In this document: positions 2 to 58,023 of the stretch, piece after piece | Position numbering within the stretch: the first letter of the stretch is position 1 | Layout: every line of letters starts with the position of its first letter | Assembly (NCBI GenBank): GCA_947458455.1 | Contig: CANGYJ010000006.1 | Span: 186,001 to 250,000, forward strand | Length of the DNA stretch: 64,000 bases | Reading direction: 5' to 3' | From: Verrucomicrobiaceae bacterium | GTDB lineage: Bacteria > Verrucomicrobiota > Verrucomicrobiia > Verrucomicrobiales > Verrucomicrobiaceae | Translations under genes and position numbers: made by a program | Notes under the pieces: generated by a model | What the model was told of the DNA's origin: nothing | Database searches by the model: none | Seen by the model: the letters and a program-made list of their open reading frames with translations, nothing else

Positions 2-433
2 ACCGGCGGGCCGGTGACGATCTCCCAGGCCATCCTGCGCAATTTCCTCCGCGTGATCGATTTCATGCCCTTCCTCTACCTCACGGGCTTTTTGAGCTGC
101 CTCTTCACGAAGCGCTTTCAGCGCCTCGGCGATCTCGTGGCAGGCACGGTGATGGTCTATACCGATCCGCCGCCGGTGACGCTGCCCAAGACGACGGTGC
201 ATGCCGAACGCCGCGCCCCGCCCAGACCCTTGAGCCGCGAGGAGCAGGCCGCCCTTCAACAATTCCTCGAACGCGCCCCAAACTGGTCCGACGAGCGTCG
301 CCTGGAGCTCTCCAGCATCCTTCAGCCGCTCACCGAAGCCGTGGGCATGGAGGGCCTGCGCCGTCTGGTGGGCATGGCAATGTGGATTCAAGAGCCGGAG
401 GCCCCAAAACCGCCACCCCCACCTTTTCGCTGA
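2..433 (+). CDS. RDD family membrane protein, C-terminal part (5' end outside window)
   Basis: The reading frame is open from base 2, so the gene begins upstream of the window. The visible part contains the end of an RDD domain: an arginine-rich FLRVIDFMPFLYL segment, one hydrophobic helix, then RFQRLGDLVAGTVMVY, which is the typical RDD ending. A soluble tail of about 85 residues, ending in a proline run, follows. RDD proteins are small inner-membrane proteins of unclear function. In many bacteria they are co-encoded with MoxR ATPases and SpoIIM-like proteins, as here: the next gene starts 3 bases after the stop. The family call is firm; the role is unknown. Confidence 0.85.
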   Translation, partial: TGGPVTISQAILRNFLRVIDFMPFLYLTGFLSCLFTKRFQRLGDLVAGTVMVYTDPPPVTLPKTTVHAERRAPPRPLSREEQAALQQFLERAPNWSDERRLELSSILQPLTEAVGMEGLRRLVGMAMWIQEPEAPKPPPPPFR

Positions 434-4273: not shown

Positions 4274-5365
4274 ATGAACGATCCCGCCTTCCCACCTCCG
4301 CCGCCTTACACGCCACCCGCGCCGAGCTATGCGCCGCCCGTGCAAAGCTACGAGCCGCCGCCTGCGCCGCCTGTTTATGTGCCGCCACCCGTCAGCTACG
4401 CGCCGCCGGTGGTGCCCACGAGCACGTCCACGATGCACGCCATCCGCCAGGCGGTGGGTCAGGTCTTTGTGGGACAAGATGAAGTCGTGCATCAAGTGCT
4501 CGCCGCCTTGCTGGCCGGAGGTCATGTGCTGCTCGAAGGCAAGCCAGGCCTCGGCAAAACCCATCTCGTGCTCGCTTTGGCCCACACCTTTGGTGGAAAC
4601 TTCCGCCGCATCCAGTTCACGCCGGATTTGATGCCCTCCGATGTCACCGGCCACACGCTCTTTGATCTCAGCAGCCAGACCTTCCGCGTGCGTCGTGGAC
4701 CCGTCTTCGCCAATCTCCTCCTCGCCGATGAAATCAACCGCGCCCCGGCAAAGACGCAATCCGCCCTGCTCGAGGTGATGCAGGAGGCCCAAGTGACCAT
4801 CGACGGCGAAAGCCACGCTTTGCAGCCGCCTTTCATGACCTTCGCCACGCAAAACCCCATCGAACAAGAAGGCACCTATCCCCTGCCCGAGGCCCAGCTC
4901 GACCGTTTCCTGCTCAAGGTGCTCATCGACTATCCCGAGAGCCAGCATGAGGCCTGGATCGTCAAAGCCGTGGCCTCCAAAGCCGGTGGCAGCGGCCTTT
5001 CCGCCGGTGCCGTGACCACCGTCTGCACGCCTGAGGACATCTTGAACGCCCAAGCCGAAGCCGCCGCCGTGCACGCGGTAGAACCGGTGGTCGATTACGC
5101 CGTGAACATCGTCCGCGCCACGCGGCAGCACAGCGCCATCAGCCTCGGGGCTGGCACGCGTGGAGCCATCAGCCTCGTCCGCGTCGCTAAATCCTACGCC
5201 CTGCTCGAAGGACGCGGCTACATCACCCCAGGCGATGTGAAACGCGCCGTCCTGCCCGTCCTCCGCCACCGTGTCCAGCTCTCCCCTGAGATCGCCATCA
5301 CCGGTCAAACCGTGGATGACATGCTCAATGCCGTCGTGCGCACAGTGGAAGCACCGCGTGGGTAA
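4274..5365 (+). CDS. MoxR-family AAA+ ATPase
   Basis: A 363-residue ATPase. Walker A is GKPGLGKT at about residues 89-96, Walker B is LLLADEINR at about 148-156, and the sensor region FATQNPIEQEGTYPLPEAQLD is typical of the MoxR subgroup. MoxR proteins act as chaperone-like ATPases that mature metalloenzymes or envelope complexes, usually with a vWA-containing DUF58 partner. The first 50 residues are an unusual proline and tyrosine-rich extension with repeated APSYAPP-type units, absent from most MoxR proteins. The gene follows the RDD, SpoIIM, DUF4129 and DUF4350 genes. No DUF58 gene follows it in this window, so that partner must lie upstream or elsewhere. Confidence 0.93.
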   Translation: MNDPAFPPPPPYTPPAPSYAPPVQSYEPPPAPPVYVPPPVSYAPPVVPTSTSTMHAIRQAVGQVFVGQDEVVHQVLAALLAGGHVLLEGKPGLGKTHLVLALAHTFGGNFRRIQFTPDLMPSDVTGHTLFDLSSQTFRVRRGPVFANLLLADEINRAPAKTQSALLEVMQEAQVTIDGESHALQPPFMTFATQNPIEQEGTYPLPEAQLDRFLLKVLIDYPESQHEAWIVKAVASKAGGSGLSAGAVTTVCTPEDILNAQAEAAAVHAVEPVVDYAVNIVRATRQHSAISLGAGTRGAISLVRVAKSYALLEGRGYITPGDVKRAVLPVLRHRVQLSPEIAITGQTVDDMLNAVVRTVEAPRG

Positions 5366-5549: not shown

Positions 5550-6260
5550 TCACGCCATCGCCTCGGCGACGGACTTGAACATGTAATAACCCCAGCCGTG
5601 GTCGGCATCACCCTTCCAATCGGGATCGTAGTGCTGGCCACGGAACAGGAAGCGCTCGGGATGCGGCATGAGGCCGAAGACGCGGCCGGTGTCGTCTTGA
5701 AGACCCGCGATTCCCTGGGTGGAGCCGTTGACGTTGGTCGAGTAAAGCAGCGCAGCGTGGCCAGACTTCACATACTTCACGGCGTCATCGCCTTCGGTAA
5801 CGAGGCGGCCTTCAGCATGGGCAATGGGTAGCTCAAACTGCTCGGGAAGCTTGGAGAGATAGGGGCTGGGCTTGGCACTGGTCTTCTTCAATCCCACCCA
5901 CTGGCACATGAAACGGCCGCTGGTGTTGTGGATGAGGCTGCCTTTGGGCAGAAGCTCGAGCTGGGTGAGGATCTGGAAGCCGTTGCAGATGCCCATGGCA
6001 TAGCCGCCACTGGCGACGAAGGACTTCAACCGATCCCCCAGCTTCGATTTGGTGATGAGCTGGGCGATGCGGCCGGACATGACGTAATCCCCGTAGCTGA
6101 AACCGCCGGAGAAAACGACCATCTGGGCCTTGTCGAGCGAGCCAGCCTCCAGCAGCGCCACGGGGAGCACCTCGGTGGTAAACCCGGCAGCCTCAAGGGC
6201 GCGGGAGGTTTCGGCGTCGCAGTTCGTTCCGGGAAATTTGATCAGCAGGGCGTGGGGCAT
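5550..6260 (-). CDS. purQ: Phosphoribosylformylglycinamidine synthase subunit PurQ
   Basis: A 236-residue class I glutamine amidotransferase that supplies ammonia to PurL in step four of purine biosynthesis. The N-terminal LLIKFPGTNCDAETSRAL motif is typical of PurQ. The nucleophile cysteine lies in MGICNGFQIL (about residue 92), and the His-Glu pair lies in LMPHPERFL near residue 216. The length matches the stand-alone small subunit of the PurSLQ type. No purS or purL is nearby. The ATG at 6260 is the only sensible start. The gene converges with the moxR operon. Confidence 0.96.
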   Translation of the reverse strand: MPHALLIKFPGTNCDAETSRALEAAGFTTEVLPVALLEAGSLDKAQMVVFSGGFSYGDYVMSGRIAQLITKSKLGDRLKSFVASGGYAMGICNGFQILTQLELLPKGSLIHNTSGRFMCQWVGLKKTSAKPSPYLSKLPEQFELPIAHAEGRLVTEGDDAVKYVKSGHAALLYSTNVNGSTQGIAGLQDDTGRVFGLMPHPERFLFRGQHYDPDWKGDADHGWGYYMFKSVAEAMA

Positions 6261-30855: not shown

Positions 30856-30892
30856 AAAAAAATCCGCCGGATGCCAACGAGCATCCGGCGGA
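30856..30892 (-). terminator. Rho-independent terminator of the pseudopilin gene
   Basis: A perfect 12-bp stem (TCCGCCGGATGC with GCATCCGGCGGA) closes a CAACGA loop at 30863-30892. On the minus strand it is followed by seven T residues (30862-30856). It lies 22 bases past the pseudopilin stop and is the clearest intrinsic terminator in the window. Confidence 0.9.
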
Positions 30893-30914
30893 TCAGGATT
30901 GAGCGGAGGATCAA

Positions 30915-40993: not shown

Positions 40994-41047
40994 AGGAACA
41001 AGGAACGGGACTTGCCAAGTCCCTCCCTGAGGCACTTGGCAAGTGCC
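40994..41047. repeat. Heptads running into two tandem palindromes
   Basis: The 446-bp gene-free gap before the menC-like gene contains AGGAACA and AGGAACG in 7-base phase, then two hairpins: GGACTTG-C-CAAGTCC (41008-41022) and GGCACTTG-G-CAAGTGCC (41031-41047). Both share the core ACTTGG/CCAAGT. They lie 40 bases from the fold-back at 41089. The remaining part, 40741-40990, is A+T rich and shows nothing else. Confidence 0.8.
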
Positions 41048-56766: not shown

Positions 56767-58023
56767 TCAACGTGAAGCAGCGGAGCTCCATTCGTCGATC
56801 TTCTGCTTCAACAGCTCCTTCGAGGGCAAGTAGAGCTGATACTCCTTCGCGTGGATGTTGGCGTCTTTTGGCAGGGTGAGCTCGACGACGGTCTTTTTGG
56901 CGGATTTGCAGAGGAGCAGGCCGATGGTGGGGTTTTCATCGGGGAGCTTCACCTCGCGGTCGTAATAATTGACGTACATTTGCATCTGCCCGAGGTCCTG
57001 ATGCGTCGCTTTATCGAGCTTGAGGTCGATGATGACGTAGCAGCGTAGGAGGCGGTTGTAGAAGACCAAATCCACGAAGTAGTGGTCCTCATCGAAGGTG
57101 AAGCGCTTCTGCCGGGCCTCGAAGAGGAAACCTTTGCCGAGTTCGAGCAGGAAATGCTCCAGCCGGTCGATGATGGCCTGCTCCAGATCCGTCTCGGAGT
57201 AGCCGGATTTTTCCTCCAGGCCCAAAAACTCGAGCACCAGCGGCTCCTTCAACAAATCCTCCGGCCTCACGATCACCTGCCCTTCCTTGGCGAGCTTGCG
57301 GATGCCTGCCTTATCCCGACTGAGCGCCAACCGCTCGTAAAGACAGGAGGCCTTCTGGCGCTTCAGCTCCGGCACGGACCATCCAGCATTCGTGGCCTCG
57401 ATCTCGTAGAAGCTGCGTTCGTCGGGATCTTTGATGGTGAGGAGGACGAGGTAGTGCGTCCAACTGATGGTGAAGGGCGATTTCCGACTAGGCTGCTCGG
57501 AAATTGGGAATTGCCCAATAGCCTGTTGGGCAATCTTTGGGATCGCCAATTTGCCAGTAGGCTGCTGGCAAATCTCGGCGGGGAGCAATTTCCCAGACGG
57601 TGTCTGGGAAATCTGTGCCGCCTTCGATTTCGCAACAGGCTGCTGCGAAATTGCCTCTGAACCCAATTTCGCAATAGGCTGTTGCGAAATCTGGACGCGT
57701 TCATTCCAGACCAGATAAAACTTCCGCATGTAGTCGAGATTGCGGTGCGAAAAGCCACTCCCAAACTCCTCCGTCAGCCTCACTGACAGCTCCTTCAACA
57801 GCTCGGAGCCATACGCCGCCCTTTTCGCACCCTTTTGCTCGTGCTCGACGATGCGGCGGCCAATTTCGAAGTTGGTCATCACCTGGAAGGTGTCCACGAC
57901 GGTGGCGACGCCGCGCCGGGCGCTCTGGATGAGCTGGCGGACCTCGGTGAGCAGGCCTTTGAGGCTGTCCGGCTTGGGTTGGGCCGGGGTGCTGGCTTTC
58001 TGGAGGGCGGGCTTCTTTTTCAT
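56767..58023 (-). CDS. DUF1016/YhcG-family PD-(D/E)XK nuclease
   Basis: The start is ATG 58023 (MKKKPALQKASTPAQPK), 418 residues; the long upstream in-frame extension is antisense to another gene. The DUF1016 N-terminal region runs to about residue 110 (VVDTFQVMTNFEIGRRIVEH, SHRNLDYMRKFYLVW). The middle is the ISQQPIAK-type repeat block. The C-terminal nuclease domain (about 240-400) has FTFDEDHYFVDLVFYNRLLR, YVIIDLKLDK and ATHQDLGQMQMYVNYYD, a PDDEXK-like active site. YhcG-type proteins are linked to defence islands and phage; activity here is inferred. Residues 111-181 come from six tandem palindromes. Confidence 0.85.
   Translation of the reverse strand: MKKKPALQKASTPAQPKPDSLKGLLTEVRQLIQSARRGVATVVDTFQVMTNFEIGRRIVEHEQKGAKRAAYGSELLKELSVRLTEEFGSGFSHRNLDYMRKFYLVWNERVQISQQPIAKLGSEAISQQPVAKSKAAQISQTPSGKLLPAEICQQPTGKLAIPKIAQQAIGQFPISEQPSRKSPFTISWTHYLVLLTIKDPDERSFYEIEATNAGWSVPELKRQKASCLYERLALSRDKAGIRKLAKEGQVIVRPEDLLKEPLVLEFLGLEEKSGYSETDLEQAIIDRLEHFLLELGKGFLFEARQKRFTFDEDHYFVDLVFYNRLLRCYVIIDLKLDKATHQDLGQMQMYVNYYDREVKLPDENPTIGLLLCKSAKKTVVELTLPKDANIHAKEYQLYLPSKELLKQKIDEWSSAASR
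57480..57690. repeat. Six tandem 25-nt palindromes inside the YhcG gene, 39-bp period
   Basis: Palindromes start at 57480, 57510, 57549, 57588, 57627 and 57666, so five of the six are spaced exactly 39 bases apart (first interval 30). Each is an 8-11 bp stem with a 3-9 base loop, mostly TAGGCTG. Stems are ATTTCCGA/TCGGAAAT, ATTGCCCAA/TTGGGCAAT, ATTTGCCAG/CTGGCAAAT, ATTTCCCAGAC/GTCTGGGAAAT, ATTTCGCA/TGCGAAAT and ATTTCGCAA/TTGCGAAAT. Both arms change together between copies. They encode 13-residue units around ISQQPxAK. Confidence 0.93.

Follow-up and report, generated by a model that had tools for sequence, protein, structure and literature searches.

Sequence-free, structure-conserved palindromes at one fixed coding position of DUF1016/YhcG nuclease genes

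The stretch of DNA analysed here (the window; 64,000 nucleotides from a Verrucomicrobiaceae bacterium) carries on its minus strand, at 56767–58023, a gene for a DUF1016/YhcG-family PD-(D/E)XK nuclease of 418 amino acids, recognized from the open reading frame with its translation and from Pfam: both PF17761 (DUF1016_N; E 1.8e-38, 132 bits) and PF06250 (YhcG_C; E 1.8e-50, 171 bits) scored above the cut-off of 33, in agreement with the identity proposed in the earlier note. The protein has a helical N-terminal domain (residues 27–120, minus strand 57664–57945; Pfam and AlphaFold model), a disordered hinge (residues ~118–187, minus strand 57463–57672) and a YhcG_C PD-(D/E)XK nuclease domain (residues 256–408, minus strand 56800–57258; Pfam). 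The catalytic residues are present (VDLVFY...VIIDLK), and the same motif was seen in the surveyed family members with two exceptions. The hinge is coded by an array of palindromes located after the N-terminal domain and ahead of the central and nuclease domains, and its AlphaFold pLDDT of 36–49 bears out the earlier placement of the repeated units in a linker, while the target-recognition role suggested for the encoded peptide found no support. NucS/EndoMS were the closest solved folds to the nuclease domain in structure comparison, its sequence resembles Holliday-junction resolvase-like enzymes (PMC1189080), and a yhcG deletion is synthetically lethal with dnaB, dnaN and parE alleles (PMC2672614). 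Two paralogues encoded in the same genome, with 42% and 35% identity in the nuclease part, have such palindromes as well. A second DUF1016 gene of this genome (L034, G000:C1:273416-274426), whose linker palindrome is weak (6/8 pairs), is located between gyrB and gyrA in the same direction, a curious neighbourhood given the synthetic lethality of yhcG with topoisomerase IV and replication alleles.

Six 25-nt inverted repeats span 57480–57690. In coding order, all on the minus strand, they are ATTTCGCAACAGCCTATTGCGAAAT at 57666–57690 (coding for ISQQPIAK), ATTTCGCAGCAGCCTGTTGCGAAAT at 57627–57651 (ISQQPVAK), ATTTCCCAGACACCGTCTGGGAAAT at 57588–57612 (ISQTPSGK, 11/11 arm pairs), ATTTGCCAGCAGCCTACTGGCAAAT at 57549–57573 (ICQQPTGK), ATTGCCCAACAGGCTATTGGGCAAT at 57510–57534 (IAQQAIGQ) and ATTTCCGAGCAGCCTAGTCGGAAAT at 57480–57504 (ISEQPSRK, 9/11 arm pairs). 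They had previously been described as six perfect hairpins with a 39-base period: the number and length stand, but the repeats are near-perfect (11, 10, 10, 10, 10 and 9 of 11 arm positions paired), and four gaps are of 39 nt while the last one (57480 to 57510) is of 30 nt. The arms are near-identical in one neighbour pair only (57627 and 57666) and differ in the remaining copies. Folded as DNA, the array reached -64 kcal/mol against -31 +/- 3 in dinucleotide shuffles (z -10), and the RNA folding gave a z of -9. The sole other hairpins of like strength in the window, at 30862–30893 and 41010–41044, have the look of ordinary inverted repeats. The six-palindrome observation is confirmed and turned out to be larger than first stated: what had been taken for a peculiarity of this gene marks almost the whole DUF1016 family. 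The six copies are best explained as a lineage-specific tandem expansion of this family-wide feature, which the disordered hinge would have tolerated.

Where the array is intact, orthologues of the same genus, family and order carry 2–6 palindromes at this position, often with the 39-nt spacing kept but the arms different; the window gene and L006, for instance, have the spacing of 39, 39, 39, 39 and 30 nt in common, while most of their arms differ. In the orthologous arrays 52 arm pairs had changed on both sides and were still paired, against 23 changed on one side, which makes the earlier statement that both sides always change nearly right; the comparison of orthologues also confirmed that the hairpin number varies and that the changes are compensatory. 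L026 has the first and last units in common with the window and is missing the inner ones, indicating that units are gained and lost. One palindrome of L009 lies out of the usual frame (EFPNRLFGNL), and therefore the peptide is not the conserved thing. In an IPWGHH-type DUF1016 gene (L253, G136:C105) the palindrome TTTCCCCCAAGTTGGGGGAAA reads FPQLGGK and not the usual IxQTLSxK. A second palindrome, likewise strong, lies near the N-terminus in a phage-borne DUF1016 subfamily (L164, L166, L169–L173); it is TCGAGGCGGCGCGC..GCGCGCCGCCTCGA (IEAARKRAAST), and L164 and L166 differ in it by a paired change. A shorter palindrome (GTGTCCACC..GTGGACAC) is present at a similar protein position in the window's genus.

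For the family-wide survey, DUF1016 genes were gathered from species genomes (one per species) and viral contigs by nuclease-domain patterns and not by the linker, and the sample is therefore free of linker bias. It included 147 non-redundant genes, and 139 complete non-redundant genes from bacteria, archaea and phages, the named loci with complete genes representing at least 14 bacterial and 4 archaeal phyla; the family sequences are not phylogenetically independent, and the chance figures are shuffle frequencies. A palindrome score of at least 10 was reached by 65% of the 147 genes and by 2.2% of protein-preserving synonymous-codon shuffles, which upholds the earlier argument that protein selection alone is insufficient. 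Of the 96 genes with this score, 85 had their best palindrome in the linker, and the strong palindromes were concentrated in a single segment of the family profile, at the end of the N-terminal domain and before a (S/P)W(S/T/G)H motif. At this site, at least 7 of 8 arm pairs (j2–9) were found in 129 of the 139 complete genes (93%), compared to 8.7% of synonymous shuffles and 5.2% of other stretches of the same genes, while 10 of the 139 scored only 6/8, no better than chance. Most genes failing the first 25-nt threshold had a shorter palindrome of ~19–21 nt at the same site, where the overall length is ~19–27 bp, and a single copy was present in most genes. Almost every DUF1016/YhcG gene, then, has a palindrome of nearly free sequence and conserved self-complementarity at one fixed coding position. 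Flanking palindromes as a general rule were rejected: E. coli yhcG has them, but only a few of 140 genes do.

The set used to characterize the signal consisted of 191 palindromes from 122 genes, with 185 distinct 25-mers among them and the centre at the first codon position (phase 0) in 190 of the 191. Watson-Crick pairing at the most variable pairs, j7 and j8, amounted to 97% and 95%, where independence expects 36% and 28%. Isoleucine was coded by ATT 141 times (52 expected) and by ATC twice (78 expected), the lysine codon AAG was absent (0 against 36 expected), and leucine at codon 9, just after the palindrome, was coded by TTR in 88 cases and by CTN in none. The residues of paired codons covaried across unlike chemistry (V..AQ, S..GK, G..DQ, W..AK, F..EK). 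Among 2101 arm cells, 1916 were paired, 67 were A-C mismatches and 25 (1.2%) were G-T on the coding strand. G-U pairs would be acceptable in an mRNA hairpin under selection, yet G-T is rarer than A-C, which places the constraint on DNA; the earlier suggestion of selection on RNA or DNA structure thus keeps its DNA half. A template-strand reading of the A-C excess was weakened, because much of the excess is at pairs set by codon context. These results show that the feature belongs to the DNA level and is neither dictated by the protein nor adjusted to mRNA pairing. The centre orientations were nearly balanced (CACTG 40, CAGTG 37; CGCTG 10, CAGCG 11), and inversion of the palindrome would explain the alternation of L/V and P/A in the hinge.

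The yhcG gene of E. coli K-12 has three linker palindromes and none of similar strength elsewhere. Palindrome 1 is AATTCGCCAGACAGTGTCTGGCGAATT in most alleles and AATTGTGCAGACACTGTCTGCACAATT in a second allele group, the K-12 copy having mismatches relative to the allele of other strains, and palindrome 2 of the second group shows a paired T-A to G-C exchange (ATTCTCC..GGAGAAT vs. ATTCGCC..GGCGAAT) between alleles about 96% identical in that stretch. A unit deletion was seen in E. coli O157. Two independent disruptions of yhcG (L054 and L055), one adjoining a transposase gene and the other by IS1, interrupt the gene inside palindrome 3 or at its border. The breakpoints of some E. coli alleles (matches 1–406 and 385–1128) were considered as domain swapping, which was rejected, as they go with insertion sequences or deletions.

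A non-coding palindrome, ATTCTGCAGACAGTGTCTGCAGAAT, follows the yhcG stop codon at a distance of 16 nt. Of 3668 genomes sharing identical flanks, 2916 had G at its centre and 391 had C, the spacer being one base, for which inversion and G/C transversion look alike in a single case; in L062 both arms of this downstream palindrome had changed (ATTCTCC..GGAGAAT). The K-12 segment from gltF-yhcA to yhcG is bounded by a palindrome after gltD and one after yhcG. In 944 genomes a joined query of the gltD and nanQ flanks had a match at a single place covering at least 80% of the query, and the two such strains that were read were without yhcG and had a single palindrome at the gltD-nanQ junction; the junction palindrome of strain Nissle 1917 is letter-for-letter a 27-mer found inside yhcG of other strains. 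The gltF-yhcG segment was either inserted at a palindrome or lost between two palindromes. Dispersed copies elsewhere in the E. coli genomes were not found, the places, counted on both strands, being at the yhcG locus only.

The pattern ATTNNNCAGACNNTGTCTGNNNAAT occurred 0–3 times in each of 50 whole genomes, almost always in DUF1016 genes. The extra hits checked in several genomes included four in further DUF1016 genes, a stand-alone copy (L251) and an imperfect match with no DUF1016 gene (L254). The search of the window's own genome outside the gene, which the earlier note had proposed, gave one DUF1016 paralogue and two weak places, and with the searched palindrome types almost confined to DUF1016 genes there and in the 50 other genomes, the idea of a general REP-like spread was abandoned. 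In viral contigs 10 complementary CAGAC-core palindromes were present outside DUF1016 open reading frames, compared to 2 and 0 for scrambled cores; some were in frame in other genes, and some adjoined toxin-antitoxin or RhuM-like genes, named by eye from the sequence. Spread outside DUF1016 genes is real but rare. In the viral contig L211 a ~95-nt stretch containing two palindromes occurs twice in identical form (4700–4800 and 6022–6122), on either side of a DUF4065-like and PemK-like gene pair, and in L219 (1208–2499; also in L216) a RhuM-like gene lies between two different ATT...AAT-type palindromes, the genes again being named by eye. A cassette idea, with palindromes beside toxin-antitoxin genes (L211, L216/219, L218, L251), was suggestive, and some of these palindromes could be terminators.

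The most certain part of our interpretation is that the paired changes would stem largely from arm-to-arm copying, that is from a switch of template within a hairpin or cruciform that would restore perfect arms and invert the centre; the earlier proposal that the hairpins are copied or maintained fits such a process. Less certainly, the near-universal retention at the site suggests that the folded DNA is also selected: template switching explains joint arm change, but not one near-universal site despite unit deletions, which favours selection on the folded DNA. Least certainly, the palindrome would be a candidate cis-acting structure-specific site for the encoded nuclease, or for the movement of its gene, enzyme and site travelling together, much as replication-initiator genes contain their own origin. 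From the NucS/EndoMS-like fold, the resolvase-like sequence and the synthetic lethality we infer a link of nuclease and palindrome, with a cis-acting branched-DNA site as the most economical function. Our preferred reading, a cis-acting DNA hairpin or cruciform site linked to the encoded nuclease and kept perfect by arm-to-arm copying, is tentative, at somewhat less than even confidence. Perfection is not essential, as natural palindromes with point mutations show (K-12 palindrome 1 and the ten genes at 6/8), and the lack of flanking palindromes in most DUF1016 genes other than that of E. coli also counts against this reading. A self-marking gene, in which the sequence-free, structure-conserved in-frame palindrome is both the cis substrate of its own enzyme and the junction at gene gain and loss, is a possible form of this reading to which we give somewhat lower credence.

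The main rival of the cis-site reading is a function-free self-repairing palindrome: an ancestral palindrome in a tolerant hinge would persist as a mutational relic, template switching (quasipalindrome correction) restoring its arms faster than point mutation erodes them. The covariation could come from template switching alone, and the survival in DUF1016 genes could reflect such an ancient palindrome. The paired changes, the balanced centre flips, the strict pairing with few G-T and the multi-base arm swaps between close alleles all agree with it, and the mechanism is known, its mark between short inverted repeats being arm homogenisation and spacer inversion (PMC8604942, PMC8794818); it has also been proposed for nematomorph coding palindromes (PMC6649704). 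We consider it somewhat less likely than the cis-site reading because one exact site is kept in ~93% of genes of bacteria, archaea and phages, because unit deletion, as in E. coli O157, would free a gene of its palindrome, and because nothing similar exists in other stretches of the same genes.

A sequence-specific operator, with a DUF1016 homodimer bound to its own palindrome for in-gene autoregulation and each subfamily having its own sequence, appears improbable. Dimers suit palindromes, the dsDNA symmetry is strict and the core type has some phylogenetic signal (51 tree changes vs. 75 shuffled), but the half-sites differ among copies in one gene (window, E. coli), the cores differ even at 80–90% protein identity, and the few conserved bases (ATT, centre, AAT) are mostly explained by protein constraint. 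Quite improbable is a mobile palindrome of the REP or RPE kind that inserts into genes and has DUF1016 for its host or its mobiliser: the tandem copies, the same-core copies that bound the E. coli gltF-yhcG segment on either side and stand alone where the segment is absent, and the excess of viral CAGAC-core copies, some of them in frame, would suit it, yet in the 50 genomes the CAGAC-core pattern is almost restricted to DUF1016 genes, the E. coli copies are at the yhcG locus only and the in-gene position is fixed, not scattered. Hairpins of the mRNA acting on translation, stability or co-translational folding are very improbable despite the very stable predicted RNA fold of the array: the G-T scarcity contradicts them, no known Rfam family matched the palindrome stretch, and non-coding copies adjoin E. 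coli yhcG. Codon coincidence of a repeated peptide, for which the similar peptides of the units (IxQxxxxK) might speak, is refuted by the synonymous shuffles, the codon choice and the matched changes of chemically unlike residues.

No earlier description of the DUF1016 palindromes was found in open-access papers, to which the search was confined. They are a DNA signature, invisible to protein-level annotation, of a widespread nuclease family to which E. coli yhcG belongs and whose function is unknown. If the cis-site reading is true, the palindrome discloses the substrate of the enzyme, namely branched or hairpin DNA within the gene itself; if the palindrome is a relic, it strikingly illustrates how a mutational process can shape proteins over very long times.

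Among known systems, REP/RAYT likewise associates a nuclease-type gene with short DNA palindromes. REPs, however, are many, intergenic and sequence-conserved, and their enzyme is of the HUH type, while the palindromes described here are in-gene, few and sequence-free, with a PD-(D/E)XK enzyme and without the copy number of REPs. Replication initiator genes (pT181 repC, phiX174 A) hold a cis-acting nuclease site within themselves; their sites are sequence-specific and shown, while the DUF1016 site is only inferred. Rickettsia palindromic elements are also palindromes within frames that stay open, but they are selfish insertions of ~100–150 nt in many genes (PMC4316617) that lose arm identity over time (PMC6649704); the DUF1016 palindromes are of 19–27 nt, have a fixed site and arms kept perfect, occur almost only in DUF1016 genes and so fall outside that class. 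PARCEL repeats (PMC2996958) are similar in being tandem coding repeats with DNA dyad symmetry and a horizontal distribution, but have 75-nt units (25 aa), imperfect symmetry, surface-type proteins and no DUF1016 link, in contrast to the 13-residue (39-nt) units of the window, which are not PARCELs. Inverted repeats maintained by template switching have in common with the present ones the paired arm changes and, in the E. coli downstream palindrome, a centre inversion with unchanged arms, the latter being ambiguous with transversion for a one-base spacer. The coding palindromes of Nematomorpha mitochondria (PMC6649704) are alike in being near-perfect repeats in functional genes, with arm conversion and a bent codon choice; those, however, are long (up to 284 bp) and are gained or lost by species in conserved regions of many genes, whereas the palindrome described here is short and tied to a single site in a single gene family, in different domains of life.
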